Assembly (NCBI RefSeq): GCF_002866025.1
Contig: NZ_LNDE01000002.1
Location: forward strand, 496,001 to 560,000
DNA from: Thermotoga sp. KOL6
GTDB taxonomy: Bacteria > Thermotogota > Thermotogae > Thermotogales > Thermotogaceae
Direction of reading: 5' to 3'
Length of the DNA stretch: 64,000 nt
Below the pieces are notes generated by a model. The model did no database searches. It saw only the letters and a program-made list of their open reading frames with translations, and was not told where the DNA came from. Every line of letters starts with the position of its first letter. Position 1 is the first letter of the stretch. Of this stretch, positions 47,800 to 60,024 are shown in pieces. Made by a program: the position numbers and the translations under genes.

Positions 47800-49047
47800 A
47801 TGAAGCAACTCACAGAAAAAGACTATCGATGGAACTTCATAGTCAACTCTCTCGATATGGCTTTTTTCAGTCTCGGTATGACTCTGGGTTCCATCTTCAC
47901 ACTCTTTCCCGTCTTTGCAAAAAATCTTGGGGCATCGAATGTTGAAATCGGTCTCATTCCAGCCATCGCTAATTTGGGCTGGGGTATTCCTGCTATATGG
48001 GGAGCCAAATACGCCGAAAGGTCTCCTAGGAAATTAGATCTCGTTTTGAAAGTTACCATGGGAGAAAGACTCCCTTATCTCTTTATGGCACTAATAAGTT
48101 TTTACCTTGCAATTCCTTCACCGAAATTGGCCCTCTACCTTTCCATATTGATGATGGGAGTGGCAACTTTCACTATGGGGTTTCTTGGTCCTCCTTGGAT
48201 GAGTATGATAGAGAAGGTCATCGATCCGAAAAGAAGAGGTTCTTTCTTTGCAATGGGAAGCGGCTTAGGTGCAATCCTAGGAATCGGTGGGTCCGTTCTT
48301 GCAAAACACCTACTTTCCAGTTACCCATTTCCTAAAAACTTTGGATACGTGTTTATGACATCGTTTGTATTTTTCATGGTGTCTTTCTTCTTTTTAATTC
48401 TCACGAGAGAAGTGCCCGATTGTGCTGTTTATGAAAATGAATCCATGTGGAGTTACATAAGAAACATGAAAAATGTTTTTATTGACAAAAATTTTAGAAA
48501 TTACTTGATGGATAGAATTCTCACCAGCTTTATGTTCGCTTCCAGTGGTTTCGTAACAGTTTATATTTTGAAAAAGCTTTCTCTTTCAGACGATGTGGCA
48601 GCAGTTTTTACCGCTATCATACTTGCATCACAAGGAATATCATCTTTTCTGTTCGGTCCCCTCGGTGATAAAAAGGGACACAAACTCAATCTTATCCTGA
48701 GTAAGGTAGCCTATACCTCTGCTGTTCTTCTTGTGGTTACATGTAACAGTATCTTGGAGGCTTACGTTGCTTTTGCACTGTTGGGGCTCGTCAACACCAC
48801 AAACAATGTGGGAAGTATGGCAATCACGTTGGATTTCGTTTCCGGTAAACGGAAGGAATTGTACATGGGATCCTTGTATTTTTCTATCGCCCCATTTTCT
48901 TTCGTTGCACCACTCGTGGGTGGGAAGATAGCGGATATTTTTGGATACGATGTGCTTATGATTCTCACTGCAATAATCGGTGCATTCGGTTGCTTTTACG
49001 TCTTAAAATTCATCTCGGATCCGAGAAAACAGAGCAAACTCGATTGA
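47800..49047 (+). CDS. Major facilitator superfamily transporter
   Basis: A 415-residue membrane protein with about 12 hydrophobic helices and an MFS-like loop in each half (K-Y-A-E-R-S-P-R-K-L; G-P-L-G-D-K-K-G-H-K). Substrate unknown. I prefer ATG 47800 because AAGGAGAG is six bases upstream and the protein then starts M-K-Q-L-T-E-K-D-Y-R-W-N. An ATG at 47761 lacks an SD. It may or may not belong with the preceding glycan genes. Confidence 0.82.
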   Translation: MKQLTEKDYRWNFIVNSLDMAFFSLGMTLGSIFTLFPVFAKNLGASNVEIGLIPAIANLGWGIPAIWGAKYAERSPRKLDLVLKVTMGERLPYLFMALISFYLAIPSPKLALYLSILMMGVATFTMGFLGPPWMSMIEKVIDPKRRGSFFAMGSGLGAILGIGGSVLAKHLLSSYPFPKNFGYVFMTSFVFFMVSFFFLILTREVPDCAVYENESMWSYIRNMKNVFIDKNFRNYLMDRILTSFMFASSGFVTVYILKKLSLSDDVAAVFTAIILASQGISSFLFGPLGDKKGHKLNLILSKVAYTSAVLLVVTCNSILEAYVAFALLGLVNTTNNVGSMAITLDFVSGKRKELYMGSLYFSIAPFSFVAPLVGGKIADIFGYDVLMILTAIIGAFGCFYVLKFISDPRKQSKLD

Positions 49048-49072
49048 ATTTTTCACATTTTAGTGATAAAAT
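49044..49072 (+). promoter_or_regulatory. Promoter of rpsB
   Basis: TTGAAT (49044-49049) and TAAAAT (49067-49072) are 17 bases apart, with TG one base before the -10. It overlaps the last codon of the MFS gene. It implies a leader of about 108 bases. Confidence 0.78.
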
Positions 49073-49078
49073 CTCCGA

Positions 49079-49186
49079 GGTATTCATAACACACGCCCCT
49101 GGATCCCACCCTCGGTGCCTGTAAAAAGGCCGGCGTGGGTTTGAAGGGGGCGGAGGATTAAAACCAAAAGGATGGAGGTGTTGTTC
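49079..49186 (+). promoter_or_regulatory. Structured 5' leader of rpsB mRNA
   Basis: The GC-rich leader can form an outer helix CGCCCC (49094-49099) with GGGGCG (49147-49152). This encloses CCCAC (49105-49109) with GTGGG (49135-49139), and an inner GCCT (49117-49120) with AGGC (49127-49130) closing a GTAAAA loop. The SD follows at 49175. It may be an S2 autoregulatory site, by analogy with S2 control of rpsB in E. coli. Confidence 0.5.
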
Positions 49187-49969
49187 GTGCCAGTTGTTAC
49201 GATGAAACAGCTTCTCGAAGCAGGGGTTCATTTTGGCCACAGGACGAGAAGATGGAATCCTAAGATGGCCCCGTACATTTATACGGAGAGGAAAGGCATT
49301 TACATCATCGATCTCCAGAAAACACAGCAACTCTTGGAAGAAGCCTACTATTTTGTAAGAGAAAAGGCCAGCGAAGGTGCCACGATTCTTTTTGTGGGAA
49401 CGAAGAAACAAGCTCAGGGAGTTATAAAAGCTGAAGCGGAAAGGTGTGGTGCCTTTTATGTCAACAACAGGTGGCTTGGAGGTCTTCTGACCAACTTCAA
49501 AACTATAAGATCCAGGATTGATAAACTCATAGAGCTTGAAGAGATGGAGCAGAGTGGGAAACTCGAAGAACTTCCGAAAAAAGAACAAAGCAGAATAAGA
49601 AGAATTTTAGAAAAGCTCAGAAAGAACCTCGGTGGTCTCAAGGAAATGAGGAGATTACCGGATATCCTCTATGTTGTAGATCCGCGGAAAGAAAAAATCG
49701 CGGTTGCCGAGGCCAACAAACTCGGTATTCCTATAGTTGCCATCGTTGATACCAATTGTGATCCCGATCCAATTGATTACGTGATTCCTGGAAACGATGA
49801 TGCAATAAGATCCATAAAACTCATCACTTCTGTTATAGCAAATGCATATCTTGAAGGAAGAGAAGGAGCTCCTCTCGCAACTGAAGAAGAAGCAGAGACG
49901 AGTGAAGAAGTTGCAGAGGAAATGGGTGAAGAGCTAGATTTTGGAGAATTTGAAGAGGAAGAAGTTTGA
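49187..49969 (+). CDS. rpsB: 30S ribosomal protein S2
   Basis: A 260-residue S2 protein starting [18 protein letters not shown], with G-T-K-K-Q-A and [12 protein letters not shown] in the middle and an acidic C-terminal tail typical of Thermotoga. GTG 49187 is chosen because GGAGGTG (49175-49181) is five bases upstream; an ATG at 49172 overlaps that SD. Unlike most bacteria, tsf does not follow; the gene has its own promoter, leader and terminator. Confidence 0.96.
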
Positions 49970-49973
49970 TGAA

Positions 49974-49996
49974 AAAGGGGGTGAGTAACCCCCTTT
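49974..49996 (+). terminator. Bidirectional terminator after rpsB
   Basis: AAAGGGGG and CCCCCTTT pair perfectly around a seven-base loop, with a T-rich tail on the plus strand and an A-rich flank that gives T's on the minus strand. It begins five bases after the rpsB stop and overlaps the stop codon of the convergent YbjQ-like gene. Confidence 0.85.
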
Positions 49997-50318
49997 ATTC
50001 TTTCTTTCGAAGTTTCACCGCCGTACCGTATGCGAGAATTTCAGCGGCACCGCTCATTATGGTTGAAGAGGAAAATCTGAATCCTATTACCGCATCCGCT
50101 CCCAGTTTTTCCGCTTCTTTTACCATTCTCTCCAAGGCGATATTTCTCGCTTCTGTGAGCATCTCTGTGTAACCTTTAATTTCCCCACCAGCTAATGTTT
50201 TAAGGGCTGCTGCGATATCCCTTCCCAGGTGTTTTGACATCACTACGTTCCCGGAAACGATTCCAACTACTTCTTTCACTTCGTATCCTGGTATTTTCTC
50301 CGTTGTTGTCACTATCAT
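49995..50318 (-). CDS. YbjQ/UPF0145 family protein
   Basis: A 107-residue protein of the YbjQ family, with G-I-V-S-G-N-V-V-M-S-K near residue 20 and the hallmark A-E-K-L-G-A-D-A-V-I-G-F-R-F near residue 72. Family members form pentamers; a heavy-metal-binding role has been suggested but not proven. It is a single gene between convergent rpsB and the ABC transporter operon, with a GGGGGTGA SD. Confidence 0.85.
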   Translation of the reverse strand: MIVTTTEKIPGYEVKEVVGIVSGNVVMSKHLGRDIAAALKTLAGGEIKGYTEMLTEARNIALERMVKEAEKLGADAVIGFRFSSSTIMSGAAEILAYGTAVKLRKKE

Positions 50319-50332
50319 GATTTCTCACCCCC

Positions 50333-51079
50333 TTAGAAATCTCTTTTCATGAATGTTTTGTAGGAAAGAAAGATGAAAGTGACGCTTGCCAAGATATAAC
50401 CGGCTGTCAGTCGGATATTAAGAGATCCTTCTAGGATGTAAGAATAAGTGTTCAGAAAATAAAGAGATTTGATGAAACCACCAATCACGGTAGTACCAGA
50501 GAGAATCGCTATGGATACGATGAGGGGTTTGATTTGATCTGAAAATATCATCGAAAAGAAGATGGTCACGGAAAACCATAGCGTTAAACCGACCATTTCC
50601 ACTAGGAAATATTGGAAAACGGAGCAGGAATCCAAATGTTCTCCAATAATCCAACTGACTGGTATAGGAAGGAGTGCAAGAACGGCTAATTCCAAGATTG
50701 ACGCCAAGAAAGGAATTAAAAACTTGATTCCAAAGAGTGTCCTCCTTTGAATTCTTGTGAGAAGAAGTTCTATGGTTTCGTTTTCTATTTCTCGAGCGAA
50801 AACGGGGAAGGCCATAATAATAGCAAGAATGGGAATGAACTGTCCAAGGTTTTTTCCATACCATTGACTCAAAATGTAGAAGTTCCATTCTGAAAGTCTC
50901 TGGATGAATTCATTTGTCACGCCGAGTTTTTTTAAAAAATCGTTTGGGATGGTTTTTATGAGATCAGAAAGGTTTTGAGTGTAATCTTTCATGATTAAAA
51001 GGAGCATAAAAGTTCCAAGAAGAACAAAAAACAACGCGAGGAAACGAACCCTCATATCTCTGAATTCTTTAGCAAACAT
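50333..51079 (-). CDS. ABC-2 type transporter permease
   Basis: A 248-residue membrane protein with six hydrophobic helices (about 17-35, 75-95, 115-135, 150-170, 180-200 and 218-240), typical of ABC-2 exporters. ATG 51079 is chosen because GAGGGGTGA (51093-51085) is five bases upstream; GTG 51088 would overlap that SD. It overlaps the ATPase gene by about 11 bases. Substrate unknown; it is the membrane half of the GntR-controlled transporter. Confidence 0.82.
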   Translation of the reverse strand: MFAKEFRDMRVRFLALFFVLLGTFMLLLIMKDYTQNLSDLIKTIPNDFLKKLGVTNEFIQRLSEWNFYILSQWYGKNLGQFIPILAIIMAFPVFAREIENETIELLLTRIQRRTLFGIKFLIPFLASILELAVLALLPIPVSWIIGEHLDSCSVFQYFLVEMVGLTLWFSVTIFFSMIFSDQIKPLIVSIAILSGTTVIGGFIKSLYFLNTYSYILEGSLNIRLTAGYILASVTFIFLSYKTFMKRDF

Positions 51080-51860
51080 CACTTTCACCCCTCACGAAAG
51101 CTTCGAATATGTCTTCAAAGGAAGCATCTTCCACTTCTATGTTCTTCGGGACTTTGTCTGTTTTCACCAGGTATACTTTTTCACCGGTTTTGAGAGTTTT
51201 CAACAGGGGACCATTGAGTTTATCTCTAGATACAACGAGCTTGTAGGAAGATTTTATATCGTCAAGATTCCCTTGAAGAACGATCTTTCCACTTTTCATG
51301 ATCGCAATCCTGTCCGCTATCTTCTCTACCTCTGCAAGCACATGACTGGTGTAAAGAACAGATTTTCCGTTGTAGGTGAGAGATCTTATGTGTTCAAGCA
51401 TGTCATTTCTCACGATGGGATCGAGTCCCCAAGTGGGTTCGTCGAGTATATAAAGATCCACATCCTCCGCGAAAATCAACGAAAGATAGAGAATCGTTCT
51501 CATACCATGAGAAAGATTGGTTACCTTTTCACTCAACTGTATCCCATACTTTTCGATCATTTTGAGTGCCTTTTTTTCATTGAAATTTTTCCCGATTCTC
51601 TTGAAGAGATCAACGATTTCTATTACTTTCAGGTACGGATACAATCTTTTTTCCTCTGGAAGGTAGGAGAAAGTCCCTTTCAGTTCTACATCGCCGGCTG
51701 ATTTTTTTCGAAGGCCAATGATACATTTCAATGTGGTAGTCTTTCCCGCCCCGTTGGGACCAAGGATGGCAAAGATCTCCCCTTTGTTCACTTCAAAATC
51801 GACACCATCTACAGCAACTTTGTCACCATAGAGTTTTTTCAAACCTCTTACTCTAAGCAT
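51069..51860 (-). CDS. ABC transporter ATP-binding protein
   Basis: A 263-residue ATPase with Walker A G-P-N-G-A-G-K-T-T near residue 36, a signature-like L-S-H-G-M-R-T near residue 137 (normally LSGGQ), and Walker B L-Y-I-L-D-E-P-T-W-G-L-D near residue 158. The His in the signature loop is a departure from the consensus seen in some ABC-2 exporters. It overlaps the GntR gene by 13 bases. Confidence 0.92.
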   Translation of the reverse strand: MLRVRGLKKLYGDKVAVDGVDFEVNKGEIFAILGPNGAGKTTTLKCIIGLRKKSAGDVELKGTFSYLPEEKRLYPYLKVIEIVDLFKRIGKNFNEKKALKMIEKYGIQLSEKVTNLSHGMRTILYLSLIFAEDVDLYILDEPTWGLDPIVRNDMLEHIRSLTYNGKSVLYTSHVLAEVEKIADRIAIMKSGKIVLQGNLDDIKSSYKLVVSRDKLNGPLLKTLKTGEKVYLVKTDKVPKNIEVEDASFEDIFEAFVRGESDVC

Positions 51861-52225
51861 GTTTTCTCACCCCTGTAGACTATTTCTATCAATTTCTGAA
51901 CCCTCTCGAAAGGGATACCTGCTCTTTTGCAATCTCTCAAGACTTTTATGAGTTCTTCTTCCAATTGCATTTGTATTTTCTTTTTGTCCACTCTGGTGAC
52001 AACGTATCCTTCTCCTCTTTTTACCTCTAAAATTCCTTCCTGAACGAGTTCCCTGTAAGCGCGTGAAACGGTGTTCAAGTTCACACCCAGATCTTCTGCG
52101 AGGGATCTTATGGAAGGGACAAATTCGCCTTCTTTTAATTTTCCGGAGAGAATAAGAAGTTTTATTCTATCTTTTATCTGCTCGTATATTGGCTTTGAGG
52201 AGTGGAAATTTATTTTGAACCACAA
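51848..52225 (-). CDS. GntR-family regulator (YtrA-like)
   Basis: A 125-residue regulator: a winged helix (about 5-75; K-P-I-Y-E-Q-I-K-D-R-I, then V-N-L-N-T-V-S-R-A-Y-R-E-L) plus a short C-terminal helical dimer region, as in the YtrA subgroup that controls adjacent ABC genes. TTG 52225 is chosen because GAGGTGA (52237-52231) is five bases upstream; GTG 52234 lies within that SD. A palindrome over its -10 suggests autoregulation. Confidence 0.85.
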   Translation of the reverse strand: MWFKINFHSSKPIYEQIKDRIKLLILSGKLKEGEFVPSIRSLAEDLGVNLNTVSRAYRELVQEGILEVKRGEGYVVTRVDKKKIQMQLEEELIKVLRDCKRAGIPFERVQKLIEIVYRGEKTCLE

Positions 52226-52239
52226 CTCTATCACCTCAT

Positions 52240-52259
52240 TGTAATATTATACTATTACA
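52240..52259 (-). promoter_or_regulatory. Palindromic GntR operator overlapping the -10 (TATAAT)
   Basis: TGTAATA (52240-52246) and TATTACA (52253-52259) are perfect inverted arms around six bases. On the minus strand TATAAT (52251-52246) lies inside it, so bound protein would block RNA polymerase. YtrA-type GntR regulators commonly repress their own operons from such sites. Confidence 0.7.
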
Positions 52260-52282
52260 CCATATCAGAATTAAATTTTGTC

Positions 52283-52311
52283 TTGCAGACTTTGTTTCGT
52301 TTTGTTAAAAT
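52283..52311 (+). promoter_or_regulatory. Promoter of mmtA
   Basis: TTGCAG (52283-52288) and TAAAAT (52306-52311) are 17 bases apart, with TG one base before the -10. It lies 36 bases before the GTG start. Confidence 0.72.
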
Positions 52312-52346
52312 AGATGATGAAATAATTTAAATCAGGAGGGATGATG

Positions 52347-54266
52347 GTGATTCTAAAAGAAATAAATAGCTTCTGTAAAGGGAGAGTTACAGGAAGACGT
52401 CTTTACGCTGTCCCAAAATTGTGGGTTCCGAAATTCTTTAAAAAATTTGATGAAAAATCAGGTAAGTACTTTGTGGATCCTTACGAATTTGGTGCGGAAA
52501 TTACAGATTGGATACTATCCCAATCTGAAGGATTAGATTATTCTCAACCTCTTTCGTTTCTGAAAGGAGAGAGAGCTCCCAATTGGGTGAGAGAATCAAT
52601 CGTCTATGGCTCTCTCCCGAGAACAACAGTCGCCTACAATCATAAAGGCTCTGGGTACTACGAAGAAGATGATGCGCTCGGTTTTCGCGAAGCGGGAACG
52701 TTTTTCAAGATGATACTTCTTCTTCCATTCATCAAGAGCCTTGGTGTGAACACCATATATCTTCTCCCGGTGAGTAAAATGAGTGATTTGTTTAAGAAAG
52801 GAAGTGCCCCGTCACCTTACGCTGTGAGAAATCCGATGGAACTGGATGAAAGATACCACGATCCTCTTCTTGAAGGTTTCGGTGTGGATGAAGAGTTTAA
52901 AGCTTTTGTGGAAGCATGTCACATCTTAGGAATCAGAGTCATTCTTGATTTCATCCCTCGAACTGCTGCGAGAGATTCCGATCTTATAAAGGAACATCCG
53001 GATTGGTTCTATTGGATAAGAGTTGAGGAGTTGGCGGATTATGCTCCTCCGCGCGCGGAAGAACTTCCTTTCAAAGTCCCAGATGAGGATGAACTGGAGA
53101 TAGTGTATGGTAAGGAAAGTGTAAAAAAGCATCTTCGGAAGTTTTCTCTTCCACCAAATCTGGTGAACCCTGAAAAATGGGAAAAGATAAAAGAAGCCAA
53201 AGAAAACATATTGGAAGCCATCATTAGAGAATTTGGTCTCATCACACCTCCAGGATTTTCTGATTTGATAAACGATCCGCAACCGACTTGGGACGATGTT
53301 ACTTTCTTGAGATTGTATCTGGATCACCCAAAAGCGTCGAAGAAGTTTGTCAGTCCCAATCAACCTCCTTATGTTCTGTACGATGTGATAAAAGCGAGTA
53401 AATTTCCGGGAGAGGAGCCCAACAGAGAACTTTGGGAATATCTGGCAGGAGTGATACCGCATTACCAGAAAAGATTTGGAATAGATGGTGCAAGACTGGA
53501 TATGGGACATGCTCTTCCAAAGGAACTGCTCGATCTCATAATAAAGAACGTGAAAGATTACGATCCCGCCTTCGTGATGATAGCCGAAGAACTCGATATG
53601 GAAAAGGATAAAGCAGCCAAAGAATCAGGATACGATGTAATCTTGGGAAGCAGTTGGTACTTTGTTAGCAGATTGAACGAGATGAAGAAAATTCTTGAAG
53701 TTTCGGAAAAACTTGTCTTACCTTTTTTAGCGTCTGTTGAGACACCAGATACGCCCCGCATAACGACGAGAAAGTATGGTTCGCGATTGAAGAGATTGTC
53801 TCCTTTTATAACATACTTCTTACCAAATTCAATACCTTATGTGAATACGGGACAGGAGATAGGGGAGAAACAACCGATGAATCTCGGACTCGATACTGAT
53901 CCTAATTTGAGAAAGGTTTTGTCACCAACTGATGAGTTCTTTGGAAGACTAGCCTTCTTCGATCAATACGCTCTTCATTGGGACAACCCAGATAAAGGAG
54001 TTTTAGAATTCATTAGAAGATTGATAGATGTGAGAAATCAATTTACAGATATGATGATTGAAGGGGAATATCAGAATCTCTCAGACGATGAACTTTTGAT
54101 GTTCTCTTATCAAAAAGAGAAGAGGAAATTGATCGTTGCTGCAAACATAGGGAACTCACAAAAAACTCTAAGGATCAGCGGATTAGTTTGGAGAGGAAGA
54201 ATGTGGGAAAAGAAAAGAAAGGTAACACTCAAACCACTAGAATTCGCCCTCATTTTCCAATCTTGA
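52347..54266 (+). CDS. mmtA: Maltosyltransferase (GH13 family)
   Basis: A 639-residue alpha-amylase-family enzyme that moves maltosyl units between maltodextrins, matching the T. maritima maltosyltransferase from memory. GH13 regions are visible: D-F-I-P-R-T-A-A-R near residue 205, the nucleophile in G-A-R-L-D-M-G-H-A near residue 390 and A-E-E-L-D-M near residue 417. GTG 52347 is chosen because it aligns with the known N terminus and has AGGAGGG six bases upstream; ATGs at 52341 and 52344 are too close to the SD. The last 30 bases overlap rbgA on the other strand. Confidence 0.95.
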   Translation: MILKEINSFCKGRVTGRRLYAVPKLWVPKFFKKFDEKSGKYFVDPYEFGAEITDWILSQSEGLDYSQPLSFLKGERAPNWVRESIVYGSLPRTTVAYNHKGSGYYEEDDALGFREAGTFFKMILLLPFIKSLGVNTIYLLPVSKMSDLFKKGSAPSPYAVRNPMELDERYHDPLLEGFGVDEEFKAFVEACHILGIRVILDFIPRTAARDSDLIKEHPDWFYWIRVEELADYAPPRAEELPFKVPDEDELEIVYGKESVKKHLRKFSLPPNLVNPEKWEKIKEAKENILEAIIREFGLITPPGFSDLINDPQPTWDDVTFLRLYLDHPKASKKFVSPNQPPYVLYDVIKASKFPGEEPNRELWEYLAGVIPHYQKRFGIDGARLDMGHALPKELLDLIIKNVKDYDPAFVMIAEELDMEKDKAAKESGYDVILGSSWYFVSRLNEMKKILEVSEKLVLPFLASVETPDTPRITTRKYGSRLKRLSPFITYFLPNSIPYVNTGQEIGEKQPMNLGLDTDPNLRKVLSPTDEFFGRLAFFDQYALHWDNPDKGVLEFIRRLIDVRNQFTDMMIEGEYQNLSDDELLMFSYQKEKRKLIVAANIGNSQKTLRISGLVWRGRMWEKKRKVTLKPLEFALIFQS

Positions 54267-55019
54267 AATTTCGTCAGGTCGTTCGAAAGAAAGACGTCCA
54301 ATTTTTCCTTGAGATACTTCTGTGAAAAAAACGTTGATAGCTCTCTCTAAATCGGGGATTCCTCCTTTCTTGAGGAATCCCCTTCTTTTTGCAAAATTTT
54401 CAAAGAAAGTATTGAAATCCTCCTCGAGGTACTGAACTCTTCTGAATATGTCATAAGCCCTTTCCAAAATCGTGAAATCTTCCACACGTTCAATGGGTAA
54501 ACTTCCAACGAGTAGAAGCTTTGCGGCAAGATCTTTGTTGAAAATGTTTTTGTAAAGTACACCAGGGGTGTCCAATATCTTTGCACCATTTTCGAGAGAG
54601 AACCACTGAATGCCGCGAGTCACACCGGGTTGAGCACCAACTGTACTCGATTTTTTCCCTTTCAGTTTGTTTATGATCGTCGACTTCCCTGTATTTGGAA
54701 CACCTACAACCAAGATTTTTGCGGTTCTTTCGATAGAGAGCTTCTTCAAGAGTACCTTTCTGGGCTCATCTTTATAGGTAGTGACAACTCTTTTCCCTTG
54801 GGCCGTGAGGAACGATGCCCATTTCTTCGTCACCGTTTCATCGGCGATATCTACTTTGTTCAAAATGATTATGGAATCTTTTTTCGAAAAATCTATCCCG
54901 TAAGCGGATGTAGCAAAAGGGGCCCGGGCATCTCGGACCTCCAAAACGGTATCCACCATTCTCAACAGTTCTCTAATTCGCCGTTTTGCCTTTTCGATGT
55001 GACCAGGGTACCAATTCAC
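54237..55019 (-). CDS. rbgA: Ribosome biogenesis GTPase RbgA/YlqF
   Basis: A 260-residue circularly permuted GTPase needed for late assembly of the 50S subunit. It starts M-N-W-Y-P-G-H-I-E-K-A, with G4 N-K-V-D (about residues 54-57) before G1 G-V-P-N-T-G-K-S-T (about 108) and G3 D-T-P-G (about 151). It overlaps the phosphohexomutase gene by four bases and mmtA (convergent) by 30. It also carries a perfect hairpin that looks like the mmtA terminator. Confidence 0.94.
   Translation of the reverse strand: MNWYPGHIEKAKRRIRELLRMVDTVLEVRDARAPFATSAYGIDFSKKDSIIILNKVDIADETVTKKWASFLTAQGKRVVTTYKDEPRKVLLKKLSIERTAKILVVGVPNTGKSTIINKLKGKKSSTVGAQPGVTRGIQWFSLENGAKILDTPGVLYKNIFNKDLAAKLLLVGSLPIERVEDFTILERAYDIFRRVQYLEEDFNTFFENFAKRRGFLKKGGIPDLERAINVFFTEVSQGKIGRLSFERPDEISRLENEGEF
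54354..54391 (+). terminator. Intrinsic terminator of mmtA inside the rbgA coding region
   Basis: GGGGATTCCTC (54354-54364) pairs perfectly with GAGGAATCCCC (54372-54382) around a seven-base loop, followed by TTCTTTTTG on the plus strand. It is 88 bases past the mmtA stop and inside the convergent rbgA gene. The minus strand lacks the T-run. Confidence 0.82.
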
Positions 55020-56431
55020 AGTCCCAATATCTCCTTAATTTTTTTCTCGTTCTCTGCTATAAGAGATTCCGCTTCTTCTTTTGTATCTCCTTTCACGTGT
55101 ATGTAAACCTTAAGTTTCGGTTCTGTTCCCGAGGGTCTCACAAAAATTCTACTTTTCTCAAAGACGAATGCGACAGTTTCGTTCGGTATGACATTGTTGT
55201 ACCCCTTGGAATAGTCAATTATATCACTGCGATTTTTCAAAGAACGGTATATCTCGATCGCTCTATCGACGTTGTCAAATTTGAAATTTATGAGTTTTTC
55301 CATGTAGTATCCGTACCTTTTGTATAATTCTTCGAGTTTTTCATAGGGATCATAATTGCTGAATGCCACCGCAGAGAGAGCACTTCCCACTACGCCATCT
55401 TTGTCTCTCGCATGATCGCCCATCAAGTATCCACAACTTTCTTCAAAACCAAAAACGAAGTTTCTATCACCTTTCTTTTGGTGCTCTTCTATCAAGTATC
55501 CAATGAACTTGAACCCTGTCGGAGTTTCTTCAAGAAAGGCTCTTTTTTCTTCACAAATGGGCCTAACCATATCCGTGGTTACTATCGTCTTTATGATCAG
55601 AGGATTATCCACTTTTATGTGTTCAAGGAGAAAGTCTGTGAGAAGTACTCCCACTTGATTTCCTGTGAGTCTTTTCCCCCTGTAAACCACTCCCACTCTA
55701 TCGCAATCTGGATCCGTAGCGAGTCCTAAAGTTGCTTGTTTTTTGTTCAGCAATATGAGGGCATCATCCTCTTCCGGGTTTGGTGTTGGGACGGTGGAAA
55801 AATTGGGATCCGGTTTCATTTGTTCCTCGACGAGTCTCACGGTGAATCCGAGTCTCTTGAGGACTTCGGGAACATAATTTGCACCCGTTCCATGAAGTGG
55901 AGAATAGGCAATATCGAGATTCGATTTTCTAGGAAGTTTAGAGAGCATCTCTACAATTTTTTCTATGTAACTCTCCTTAATCTCAGGAGGAACTGTTTTG
56001 AAGTTTCTTTCTTTCACTGCAGAGGTATCTACCTTTTTATAAATCTCTGTGATTTCATCAGTATACTTTGGAATAGCCTGTACACCATCCCATGTGTACA
56101 CTTTGTATCCGTTGTACTCAGGAGGATTGTGACTCGCTGTGATAACAACACCAGCCCCCGCTTTCATGCTTCTAACAGCATAGGAAAGAACGGGAGTTGG
56201 TGTTGGTTCAGAAAACACATAAGCCTCTATTCCTTCACCTGCGAAAACCTTCCCTGCAAGCTCCGCGAATTTTCTGGAGTTTCTCCTCGTATCGTAAGCT
56301 ATCACCACACTTTTCAAGTTTCGTTCTTTCATCCAGAGGGCGGTACTCAGTGAGGCTCTTTTCACAGTTTCTTCATCGAACTCGCCTTCCCTCATGATCC
56401 CGCGAATACCACCCGTTCCAAATAGGATCAT
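55016..56431 (-). CDS. Phosphomannomutase/phosphoglucomutase
   Basis: A 471-residue alpha-D-phosphohexomutase. It begins M-I-L-F-G-T-G-G-I-R-G, the phosphoserine loop is T-A-S-H-N-P-P-E-Y-N-G near residue 100, the metal loop is D-P-D-C-D-R-V-G near residue 235 and the phosphate-binding R-P-S-G-T-E-P-K is near the end. It converts hexose 6- and 1-phosphates for sugar nucleotide synthesis. ATG 56431 is chosen because GGAGGTGA is five bases upstream; GTG 56440 is inside that SD. It lies 59 bases inside the upstream radical SAM gene. Confidence 0.93.
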   Translation of the reverse strand: MILFGTGGIRGIMREGEFDEETVKRASLSTALWMKERNLKSVVIAYDTRRNSRKFAELAGKVFAGEGIEAYVFSEPTPTPVLSYAVRSMKAGAGVVITASHNPPEYNGYKVYTWDGVQAIPKYTDEITEIYKKVDTSAVKERNFKTVPPEIKESYIEKIVEMLSKLPRKSNLDIAYSPLHGTGANYVPEVLKRLGFTVRLVEEQMKPDPNFSTVPTPNPEEDDALILLNKKQATLGLATDPDCDRVGVVYRGKRLTGNQVGVLLTDFLLEHIKVDNPLIIKTIVTTDMVRPICEEKRAFLEETPTGFKFIGYLIEEHQKKGDRNFVFGFEESCGYLMGDHARDKDGVVGSALSAVAFSNYDPYEKLEELYKRYGYYMEKLINFKFDNVDRAIEIYRSLKNRSDIIDYSKGYNNVIPNETVAFVFEKSRIFVRPSGTEPKLKVYIHVKGDTKEEAESLIAENEKKIKEILGL

Positions 56432-58226
56432 CTTTATCACCTCCGGAGAGAATGTTTTTCACATTGAGCCTGTAGCAGACTCCACATAGGTAACATTTAT
56501 TCCATCTACAGTCCTCTGTTGTTTCTCCAGCCAAAGCCTTTTTGAATTCTTCTCTAAGAAACTCTTTTGTGACACCCATGTCTATGTGATCCCATGGTAG
56601 CCCTTCTTCCAATTTTCTCTCTCTGAGATAGTGCATAGGATCTACTCCGGTGATATCAAACGCTTTAAGCCAAACATCAAAATTGAACTGTTCACTCCAT
56701 TCGTCGAACAAAGCACCGAGTTCATTTGCTCGTACTATGAGATTCAATAAGTTGCGATCTCCTCTTGAAAATATTCCTTCGAGAAAACTCATTCTTGGAT
56801 CGTGATACGATATCTTTGCAACCCTCTTTGCCTTTTTTATCACTCTGAACCTTTCTTCTGCTTCTTCGGGTGTAATTTGTCTAACAAATTGGAATGGTGT
56901 ATGGGGTTTTGGAACGAAAACAGATACGGATGCTGTTACCTCTTTGAAACCCATTCTCTTCACCTTTTGGAGAAGGTACACCATTTCCTCAAGGTCTTTT
57001 TCACTCTCACCTGGTAATCCTATCATGAAGTAGAGTTTCACTCTTCGCCATCCAGCTTTTTTCGCTGCTTCTAACGTTGAAACGATATCGTGTTCTTCTA
57101 TGTTCTTGTTTATGATGTTTCTTAGCCGTTGAGTGGCTGCTTCTGGAGCGAATGTAAGGCCTGTTTTTCTCACAGAAGCTATCTTGGAAGCGACTTCCAC
57201 ACCGAATCTGTCCATTCTTGTTGAAGGGATTGAGATAGCGATTTTCTTTTCTGAATATCTGTTCAAAAGTTCAGAGACGATCTCCCCTATTTGTGAATGA
57301 TCCATCGTCGAGAGTGAAAGGAGTGATACTTCTTCGTATCCTGTGTGTTTTAACATCGCTTCAACATTTCTCAAAATATTATCGAGGGATCTTTCACGCA
57401 CCGGTCTGTAAAAAATACTAGCATGACAGAATCTGCATCCTCGAGTGCATCCACGGGCGATTTCTATCACGGCCCTATCGTGTACAGATTCCGTATTTGG
57501 AAGAATTTTCTTAATAGGTACAGGTTGATCGTCTAGATTCCTCACTATCCTTCTTCTGATCTTCTCTGGGAAGTCGGGTGAGATGGGTACGATCTTTTGT
57601 TCTTTTTGTTTGTAAAAGGCAGGAACGTAGACACCTTCTATCTTTGATAATTCTTTCAAAATAGTATCTCTTTTTTCACCTTTTGTTTCTTTCAAAACTT
57701 GTACAATTTCGAGAATGGCTTCCTCTCCATCACCGATGAGAATTGCATCAAAAAGACCGTAAACTGGTTCAGGATTTGAAGAACAAGGGCCTCCACCGAG
57801 AACAATAGGATCTTCTTTTTTTCTTTCCCAAAAGAATAGGGGGATTTTAGAGAGCTTCAAAACTTCCACAACGTTGGTATAAGAGAGTTCGTACTCCAGA
57901 GAAATTCCTACGGCATCCATTTGATAAAGAGGTGTATAGGATTCCATAGTGTAAAGGGGAACACCTTTTTCTTTCATCTTTTCTATCATATCGACCCACG
58001 GGAGATAGCTCCTTTCTGCCCAGACGTCAGGTTGATTGTTCAAGATATGGTACAGAACTTCCAATCCATAATTCGAAGTGCCTATTTCATACGTATCTGG
58101 AAAAACGAGCGCCATTCTAAGAGAAACTTCACCTGGATCCTTTATCACACAGTTAATCTCTTTTCCTATGTATCTACTCGGTTTCCTCACCCAAGGAAGA
58201 GTCTCATTTAGGAATCTCAGAATCAT
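56373..58226 (-). CDS. Radical SAM protein (TIGR03960-like, B12-binding type)
   Basis: A 617-residue protein. Residues about 1-200 resemble a B12-binding-like region. The radical SAM core has C-T-R-G-C-R-F-C-H near residue 260 (CxxxCxxC for a [4Fe-4S] cluster). A C-terminal C-R-W-N-K-C-Y-L-C-G-V-C-Y near residue 580 may bind a second cluster. Related proteins are widespread but not assigned a reaction. The last 59 bases overlap the start of the phosphohexomutase gene, an unusually long same-strand overlap here. Confidence 0.85.
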   Translation of the reverse strand: MILRFLNETLPWVRKPSRYIGKEINCVIKDPGEVSLRMALVFPDTYEIGTSNYGLEVLYHILNNQPDVWAERSYLPWVDMIEKMKEKGVPLYTMESYTPLYQMDAVGISLEYELSYTNVVEVLKLSKIPLFFWERKKEDPIVLGGGPCSSNPEPVYGLFDAILIGDGEEAILEIVQVLKETKGEKRDTILKELSKIEGVYVPAFYKQKEQKIVPISPDFPEKIRRRIVRNLDDQPVPIKKILPNTESVHDRAVIEIARGCTRGCRFCHASIFYRPVRERSLDNILRNVEAMLKHTGYEEVSLLSLSTMDHSQIGEIVSELLNRYSEKKIAISIPSTRMDRFGVEVASKIASVRKTGLTFAPEAATQRLRNIINKNIEEHDIVSTLEAAKKAGWRRVKLYFMIGLPGESEKDLEEMVYLLQKVKRMGFKEVTASVSVFVPKPHTPFQFVRQITPEEAEERFRVIKKAKRVAKISYHDPRMSFLEGIFSRGDRNLLNLIVRANELGALFDEWSEQFNFDVWLKAFDITGVDPMHYLRERKLEEGLPWDHIDMGVTKEFLREEFKKALAGETTEDCRWNKCYLCGVCYRLNVKNILSGGDKDDPIWNGWYSRDHEGRRVR

Positions 58227-58243
58227 ATTTTCACCTCGTATCG

Positions 58244-58252
58244 ATTTTATCA
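58244..58252 (-). promoter_or_regulatory. Extended -10 (TGATAAAAT) for the radical SAM / phosphohexomutase / rbgA run
   Basis: TG-A-TAAAAT on the minus strand, 17 bases before the ATG at 58226; no clear -35. Its neighbour on the plus strand is a TATAAT at 58255. Confidence 0.5.
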
Positions 58253-58254
58253 GA

Positions 58255-58260
58255 TATAAT
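58255..58260 (+). promoter_or_regulatory. -10 element (TATAAT) before holB
   Basis: A perfect TATAAT lies 19 bases before the holB ATG, with no clear -35. It is two bases from the divergent -10. Confidence 0.45.
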
Positions 58261-58279
58261 TGAAAAGCGAGGTGAGAAA

Positions 58280-59218
58280 ATGAAAGATTTGATAGTAAAC
58301 TATGCGAAAGGTCAATTGGAACTTTTGAAAAGAATCATTGAACGTTCTAAAGGTGTATCTCTGCTCGTGGATGGAGAGGATCTCTCTTATCAAAAGGAGA
58401 TCTCTCGAGCGTTGCCAGAATATGTGGAAAAATTTCCAGGCAAAGCATCGGATATCATGGAAATAGATCCGAAAGGAGAAAACATTGGAATTGACGAGAT
58501 TCGTTCGATAAAGGATTTCTTGAACTACAGTCCGGAGCTTTACCTTAGAAAGTATGTAATAGTACACGATTGCGACAAGATGACACAACAAGCCGCTAAC
58601 GCTTTTTTAAAAACTTTAGAAGAGCCACCAGAGTATGCTGTGATAATTTTGAACACAAAGCGTTGGCATTATCTTCTTCCTACGATCAGAAGCAGAGTTT
58701 TCAGGGTTAGTGTAAGAGTACCTAGGAACTTTTTGGATTCTTTAAAGGAAAAACTTGGAGAAATTTGGGAAGAAGTTTCCTTCTTGGAAAGAGATTTTCA
58801 GATTGCTTTGGAGGCTTATAAACTTGAGAAAAGTGGTGTCTTGAAGCTCTTAGAGAATACAAGGCACTTGGAGACAGACAAATTACTGAAGAAAATCTTG
58901 TTAGAGGGACTAGAAGGTTACGTAGCATGTTTGGAACTCCTCAGGAGATTCGTGGAGGTTGAAACGAAGACTTTCTTTGAAATTTTCGATAAACTTACCA
59001 ATGCTGTCACAGGGAAGGACATGTTTCTTTTGATACAGAAATTGGTACGTATCGTGCTCTACAGAAACGATTGGGAAGACTCATCCGCTCAGAGAGACAT
59101 ATCGTTTTTAGATTCCATCTTGAGAACAAGAGTAGCGAACTTGAACTCTAGAATAACTCTCATGAACATTCTGATAATTCATAGAGAACGAAAGAGAGGT
59201 GTTAACTCTTGGAGTTGA
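58280..59218 (+). CDS. holB: DNA polymerase III delta'-like subunit
   Basis: A 312-residue clamp-loader-like protein with D-C-D-K-M-T-Q-Q-A-A-N-A-F-L-K-T-L-E-E-P near residue 100 and I-R-S-R-V-F near residue 135. These are the sensor and conserved segments of delta'/gamma AAA proteins. No Walker A is seen, as is usual for delta'. It lies beside ricT, an order shared with Firmicutes (holB-yaaT). It overlaps ricT by ten bases. Confidence 0.88.
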   Translation: MKDLIVNYAKGQLELLKRIIERSKGVSLLVDGEDLSYQKEISRALPEYVEKFPGKASDIMEIDPKGENIGIDEIRSIKDFLNYSPELYLRKYVIVHDCDKMTQQAANAFLKTLEEPPEYAVIILNTKRWHYLLPTIRSRVFRVSVRVPRNFLDSLKEKLGEIWEEVSFLERDFQIALEAYKLEKSGVLKLLENTRHLETDKLLKKILLEGLEGYVACLELLRRFVEVETKTFFEIFDKLTNAVTGKDMFLLIQKLVRIVLYRNDWEDSSAQRDISFLDSILRTRVANLNSRITLMNILIIHRERKRGVNSWS

Positions 59219-60024
59219 AAGCTAAAGCAGTGGGAATAGAAATAATGCCCAAAGGCAAGATAATATACTATTCTGTTCCAAACGGAGAGGAATATAAAAA
59301 GGGAGATCTTGTCCTAGTGATGGGCGATTTCGGCTTGGAAGTGGGAAGGGTACTCATTCCTGTACGTGAAGTTAGCATAGATGAGGTTGGGTACGAACTG
59401 AAAGCTGTCATCAAGAAATTGACAGAGGACGACGTTGAGCAATATAAAAAGAATGTTGAAGATGCTTGGAAAGCTTTTCAGATATGTAAGAAGAAGATAA
59501 AAGAACACGGTCTTCCCATGAAACTTCTCTACGCGAAGTACACGTTTGACAGAACTCGCCTTGTCTTCTTTTTCAGTGCTGAGGGAAGAGTTGACTTCAG
59601 AGAACTTGTAAGGGATTTAGCCAAGACTTTCAAGACGCGTATCGAACTCAGACAAGTTGGTGTGAGGGATGAGATGAAATTTTTTGGTGGACTCGGATTG
59701 TGCGGACTTCCTACCTGTTGTTCAACCTTTCTCAGGGAATTTTCGAGTGTTACACTGAAACACGCAAAAAAGCAGCAAATGATGATAAATCCAGCAAAGA
59801 TATCGGGACCTTGTCGAAGACTTCTATGTTGCTTAACATACGAGTACGATTTTTATGAGAAGGAATTAGCAGGTATTCCTGATGAAGGAAGTACCATAAC
59901 TTATGAAGGGAAACGATACAGGGTTGTGAACGTGAATGTATTTCTGAAAACAGTGACTCTTTTCTCCGAGCAGGAAGGAGAGATGGTGAAAGTTCCGTTC
60001 GAATATTTCAAGAAGGAGGCGTGA
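59209..60024 (+). CDS. ricT: PSP1-domain protein RicT (YaaT)
   Basis: A 271-residue protein of the PSP1/RicT family. It has a beta-rich N terminus, R-V-D-F-R-E-L-V near residue 125 and cysteine clusters G-L-C-G-L-P-T-C-C near residue 163 and P-C-R-R-L-L-C-C-L-T near residue 203. In Bacillus, RicT is part of an iron-sulfur complex that helps RNase Y mature mRNAs. Its usual partners RicA and RicF are not in this window. It starts at TTG 59209, seven bases after GAGGTG. Confidence 0.88.
   Translation: MELKAKAVGIEIMPKGKIIYYSVPNGEEYKKGDLVLVMGDFGLEVGRVLIPVREVSIDEVGYELKAVIKKLTEDDVEQYKKNVEDAWKAFQICKKKIKEHGLPMKLLYAKYTFDRTRLVFFFSAEGRVDFRELVRDLAKTFKTRIELRQVGVRDEMKFFGGLGLCGLPTCCSTFLREFSSVTLKHAKKQQMMINPAKISGPCRRLLCCLTYEYDFYEKELAGIPDEGSTITYEGKRYRVVNVNVFLKTVTLFSEQEGEMVKVPFEYFKKEA

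Follow-up and report, generated by a model that had tools for sequence, protein, structure and literature searches.

A stretch of 64,000 nucleotides of the Thermotoga sp. KOL6 genome (contig NZ_LNDE01000002.1, positions 496,001 to 560,000 of the forward strand; hereafter the window, to which all coordinates refer unless a contig or locus is named) contains a G+C-rich hairpin followed by a T-rich tail. Judging from its sequence, this element is very probably an ordinary one-directional intrinsic (Rho-independent) terminator of the maltosyltransferase gene mmtA, which has been displaced into the coding sequence of the convergent gene rbgA by the overlap of the two genes. The same bases thus appear to serve both mmtA and rbgA in Thermotoga.

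Arrangement of the mmtA and rbgA genes

The 3' ends of the two coding sequences overlap, which leaves zero intergenic room for a terminator and would explain why the hairpin lies inside rbgA. The features of the region are as follows.

52341-54266, plus strand: mmtA, encoding maltosyltransferase, with a transcript that would end at the hairpin (open reading frame list, phmmer)
54237-55019, minus strand: rbgA/ylqF, ribosome biogenesis GTPase, with the putative terminator antisense at codons 213-223 (TIGR03596)
54237-54266, both strands: 30 bp shared tail to tail by the coding sequences of mmtA and rbgA (open reading frame coordinates)
54267-54353, plus strand: predicted 3' UTR of mmtA from stop to stem, entirely antisense to rbgA (coordinates)
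54354-54364, plus strand: 5' stem arm GGGGATTCCTC (sequence, terminator scan, folding)
54365-54371, plus strand: loop CTTTCTT (terminator scan, folding)
54372-54382, plus strand: 3' stem arm GAGGAATCCCC (terminator scan, folding)
54383-54390, plus strand: T-rich tail TTCTTTTT, antisense to the rbgA codons AAA AGA A(GG) (K-R-R)

The best phmmer match of the mmtA product is PDB 1gju, a maltodextrin glycosyltransferase (1203.7 bits), which we take to be the T. maritima enzyme. The product also carries a DUF1923 C-terminal domain, and mmtA is 78% identical to its orthologue in the genus member G006. The rbgA product scores 219 bits against TIGR03596 (YlqF), for which the curated cut-off is 208.2. 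Both gene names used in the original prediction are therefore confirmed, as is its placement of the hairpin within the convergent rbgA, past the end of mmtA, the distance from the mmtA stop to the stem being 87 nt; the 30-bp overlap of the genes was absent from it. The bases of the hairpin block are antisense to RbgA residues 213-223 (R-G-F-L-K-K-G-G-I-P-D), in agreement with the earlier assignment of a K-K-G-G-I-P segment near residue 220 to the same bases. No further terminator-like hairpin was found by the scan between the mmtA stop and the hairpin (54267-54353).

Structure and strand polarity of the hairpin

The stem is a perfect 11 bp with seven G-C pairs and is closed by a loop of 7 nt (54354-54382). 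The tail TTCTTTTT lies directly 3' of the stem and consists of T at seven of its eight positions, while the next base (54391) is a G. In a scan of positions 48000-60000 this hairpin was the rank 1 terminator-like site. Its fold has a predicted energy of -20.7 kcal/mol (z = -3.36 against shuffled sequences), and in a prediction at 80 C the stem persists as the predicted fold with energies of -3.4 to -5.4 kcal/mol. Searching positions 53900-54800 with the Rfam 15 models gave no match at E values up to 1, which rules out a known structured RNA family.

The minus strand past the stem reads GATTTAGAG and is without a T-run, so that the T-tract is confined to the mmtA strand and a bidirectional terminator is ruled out. 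Hairpin and U-tract form together in the mmtA transcript only, while the rbgA transcript has the stem without the U-tract. The perfect 11-bp stem, the seven-base loop, the T-rich tail and the restriction of the T-run to the plus strand had all been predicted, and all are found in the sequence at 54354-54390.

Conservation of the hairpin in Thermotoga

Seven genomes of the genus, including that of the window, were compared; they fall into about three clades and hence represent few independent lineages and events. In each of the seven, mmtA and rbgA converge. Comparison of the stem across relatives, as proposed in the original prediction, revealed a hairpin with an adjoining T-rich tail at the homologous rbgA codons in 7/7 of these genomes, so that the prediction is not refuted by a lack of conservation. 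The full 11-bp stem is found in the window and in G001, G004 and G006; it has 9 bp in G003 and 8 bp in G002 and G005, and the hairpin of the last two has an 11-nt loop and a predicted energy of -14.7 kcal/mol. One inner stem pair is disrupted by a GGC codon in three genomes. Outside the genus, 28 rbgA loci were collected, of which 27 are distinct, since L008 and L031 represent one contig. The hairpin is absent in all 27 distinct orthologues, and an mmtA match near rbgA was found at none of these loci (0/27).

A perfect inverted repeat can fold on either strand and the rbgA-sense sequence contains an AGGAGG motif, features which would be compatible with a hairpin that works in the rbgA mRNA instead of terminating mmtA, perhaps by causing a pause in translation or by affecting stability. 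We consider such a role extremely unlikely, since the T-tract is present on the mmtA strand alone and the hairpin is missing in rbgA orthologues without a convergent mmtA. An element of rbgA should not track the neighbouring gene, though it has to be kept in mind that the genus is one clade.

Within the genus, the hairpin-containing blocks rank 1-3 of 245 rbgA windows in third-position conservation, and 6 of the 11 third positions in the hairpin block are invariant, as compared to 18% across rbgA. One stem pair is altered on both sides, from UA to CG, by way of TTC/ATC (Phe/Ile) versus CTC/GTC (Leu/Val) codons, and one pair is changed from GC to GU in three genomes. The former is the only two-sided change in the 11 pairs, and covariation as high was obtained in 78 of 500 shuffles; as a single double event within the shuffle control, it was dropped as a main argument. 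The expectation that pairing would be kept by synonymous or compensatory changes thus held for the synonymous sites, which are unusually conserved; for compensation, one change within the shuffle control is seen. Support for the putative terminator comes from the synonymous constraint together with the association with gene order, covariation being weak by itself.

Synonymous constraint on the hairpin block

The stretch rich in K and R naturally yields an antisense T-run, and the G-G motif supplies part of the complementarity of the stem. It could therefore be argued that the R-G-x-L-K-K-G-G-x-P-D motif of RbgA, combined with normal codon usage, yields the self-complementarity and that the K/R codons preceding it give the antisense T-run by chance. 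As a null model, the 11-codon block was recoded synonymously with local codon usage, and recodings with a stability equal to or greater than that of the observed hairpin were counted. Such recodings amount to 0-0.4% in each of the seven genus members (P ~0-0.004), with P ~2e-4 for the exact 11-codon block of the window; in four outgroup rbgA orthologues, 3-17% of the recodings match the observed stability. When the last 100 rbgA codons were recoded with usage weighting, 19 of 20,000 recodings contained any perfect stem of at least 9 bp together with an antisense T-tract.

The stem is thus seldom equalled by synonymous recodings. Moreover, orthologues with similar protein motifs but without mmtA have no hairpin, third-position conservation in rbgA is highest in the stem, and the genome-wide excess described below is specific to convergent 3' ends. 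A coincidence of coding is highly unlikely on these grounds and is largely refuted by the synonymous recoding. The protein sequence of rbgA leaves the hairpin unexplained.

Proposed termination of the mmtA transcript

The element unites the features expected of an intrinsic terminator, namely a G+C-rich hairpin, an adjoining U-tract, an upstream gene on the same strand and conservation beyond coding. Its assignment to mmtA rather than to rbgA, as originally predicted, is supported by its polarity, its 7/7 conservation, its absence in orthologues without mmtA and the synonymous constraint. In the proposed mechanism, RNA polymerase would run beyond the mmtA stop and transcribe the strand antisense to the final codons of rbgA, the nascent RNA would form the 11-bp G+C-rich hairpin 87 nt after the stop, and the transcript would be released over UUCUUUUU. 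At this distance the hairpin would be beyond the reach of a ribosome sitting at the mmtA stop, and its folding would be unblocked. It has been reported that in E. coli most of the efficiency of a terminator was lost when 5 bp separated it from the stop, and was regained with distance (PMC4824070). By analogy, the same effect may apply in Thermotoga. That the transcript is terminated here in the cell, how efficiently, and the bearing of the distance to the ribosome are inferences from this arrangement.

On the side of rbgA, no intrinsic terminator was detected inside mmtA in the window (53737-54266, minus strand), in G002 or in G003, while the other genus genomes have weak rbgA-side hairpins ~330 nt into mmtA. 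Since rbgA is without a comparable terminator inside mmtA, its transcript may need Rho to end or may have diffuse ends. A further possibility is that, in addition to the mmtA terminator and not as an alternative to it, the overlapping 3' ends, with RNAs complementary over at least 150 nt, regulate mmtA and rbgA in an excludon-like manner, with read-through adding rbgA antisense. From the coordinates, the predicted mmtA RNA overlaps the rbgA mRNA by at least 154 nt, rbgA terminator hairpins inside mmtA are missing or weak as described, and precedents exist in the excludons and in arfA-mscL (PMC7154746, PMC10070815). However, a compact genome in which half of the convergent pairs overlap accounts for the geometry without regulation, and coordinated regulation of mmtA and rbgA seems rather improbable.

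Comparison with known systems

The proposed mmtA terminator resembles a canonical intrinsic terminator in its perfect G+C-rich stem and short loop, in having a T-rich tail on the strand that is transcribed and in its position downstream of a gene. It is unlike one in lying wholly inside another coding sequence and 87 nt from the stop, the median distance of the intergenic terminators of the survey genome being 16 nt. Overlapping convergent 3' ends, antisense 3' UTRs, terminators in neighbouring genes and compensatory evolution of terminator stems have all been documented. In Caulobacter, a terminator lies within the adjacent gene, and removal of that gene from a rewritten genome resulted in read-through (PMC8144410). 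There, as here, the terminator of one gene is located inside its neighbour, but the Caulobacter terminators were found experimentally as lost elements, whereas that of mmtA was recognized in convergent pairs, from its conservation and from the constraint on synonymous sites. The bidirectional terminators of B. cereus (PMC5381666) and Z. mobilis (PMC7566282) likewise belong to convergent pairs, and compensatory stem evolution has been described for terminators of this kind (PMC5381666). However, they are intergenic and have T-tracts on both strands, in contrast to the intragenic and one-directional element of mmtA.

Excludons (PMC7154746) and the E. coli arfA-mscL pair, in which a 3' UTR is complementary to the coding sequence of the partner (PMC10070815), share with mmtA/rbgA the convergent genes and the transcripts overlapping at their 3' ends; regulation by the overlap has been demonstrated there, whereas the mmtA/rbgA overlap is deduced from coordinates. 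For T. maritima, which belongs to the same group, RNA-seq has been reported to detect antisense transcripts at 19% of the genes, 3' UTRs accounting for 52% of the antisense (PMC3636130). Antisense 3' UTRs, predicted in the case of mmtA, are common to both cases, in keeping with the proposed terminator, but the main-text passages of that study that we consulted contain no analysis of terminators inside convergent coding sequences or of their sequence constraint. In the literature searched, we found no account of a measured excess of convergent-nested terminators in Thermotoga, controlled by a synonymous null and accompanied by orthologous conservation.

Nested terminators across the genome

The survey covered 1.376 Mb, or 80% of the genome (G000, contigs C1 and C2), with genes called by a simple home-made hexamer caller that placed mmtA, rbgA and the two genes after them at the coordinates of the open reading frame list. 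A strict definition of a terminator was used (stem of 8 bp or longer, T at 6 or more of 8 positions, dG of -13 or lower), along with one relaxed version, all within a single genus. Coding sequences overlap in 73 of 143 convergent pairs of the survey genome and in 41 of 82 pairs in the part of G006 examined. As about half of the convergent pairs overlap, at least some of their terminators sit in coding sequence, where they would be missed by terminator predictors and annotators, which often search only intergenic DNA.

Within the last 300 nt of convergent genes, 6 antisense terminators were found against 0.05 expected from 40 synonymous shuffles, none of which ever contained more than one nested terminator; the remaining antisense coding DNA contained 3, where 0.65 would be expected. 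In G006, 812 kb of 1,860,725 bp yielded 3 nested terminators against 0.07 expected. Sense-strand internal hairpins in the survey mostly lie across the gene's own stop or the start region of the next gene, and the antisense nested class is hence not undermined by them. The mmtA case is not isolated, as at least a few other gene pairs share its arrangement.

It is possible, although we would advance it only tentatively, that gene packing has given rise to a systematic class of nested terminators that constrain the opposing codons across the genus and occasionally steer amino acids, as the change of RbgA Phe/Ile to Leu/Val that keeps a stem pair may illustrate; the 3' overlaps might also couple expression. 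The class as quantified across the genus is of more interest than the mmtA case alone. Nested terminators impose a synonymous constraint which can be mistaken for other selection, and codon optimisation or synonymous recoding of the host gene would silently destroy the terminator of the neighbour; a precedent is the rewritten Caulobacter genome, in which terminators residing in neighbouring genes were lost (PMC8144410). The nested class also offers a clean natural test of how far a nucleic-acid signal constrains the protein encoded on the opposite strand.

Among the individual cases, the terminator of the IMP dehydrogenase gene (L110:18822-18850; G000:C1:318822-318850) lies inside a convergent gene of 357 aa, for which no NCBIfam match was obtained. 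Its stem arms are identical in 7/7 genomes, while the fast-evolving host protein is 58-63% identical. The terminator of a nucleotide-sugar dehydrogenase gene (L082:3778-3801; G000:C2:383778-383801), located inside a rhomboid-like gene, is found at the same site in 4/7 genomes, and a different hairpin ~14 nt away is present in the other 3/7, which may reflect terminator turnover. Two nested cases, C1:36209 and C1:632182, are not conserved in the genus, in which the genes they are paired with are missing or poorly conserved. The terminator of the dihydrolipoyl dehydrogenase gene (L071:14774-14800; G000:C2:174774-174800) lies ~270 nt inside a convergent DNA-glycosylase-like gene, and its 9-bp arms are invariant in 7/7 genomes. 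On the sense strand, too, this hairpin is followed by a T-run, although a weaker one.
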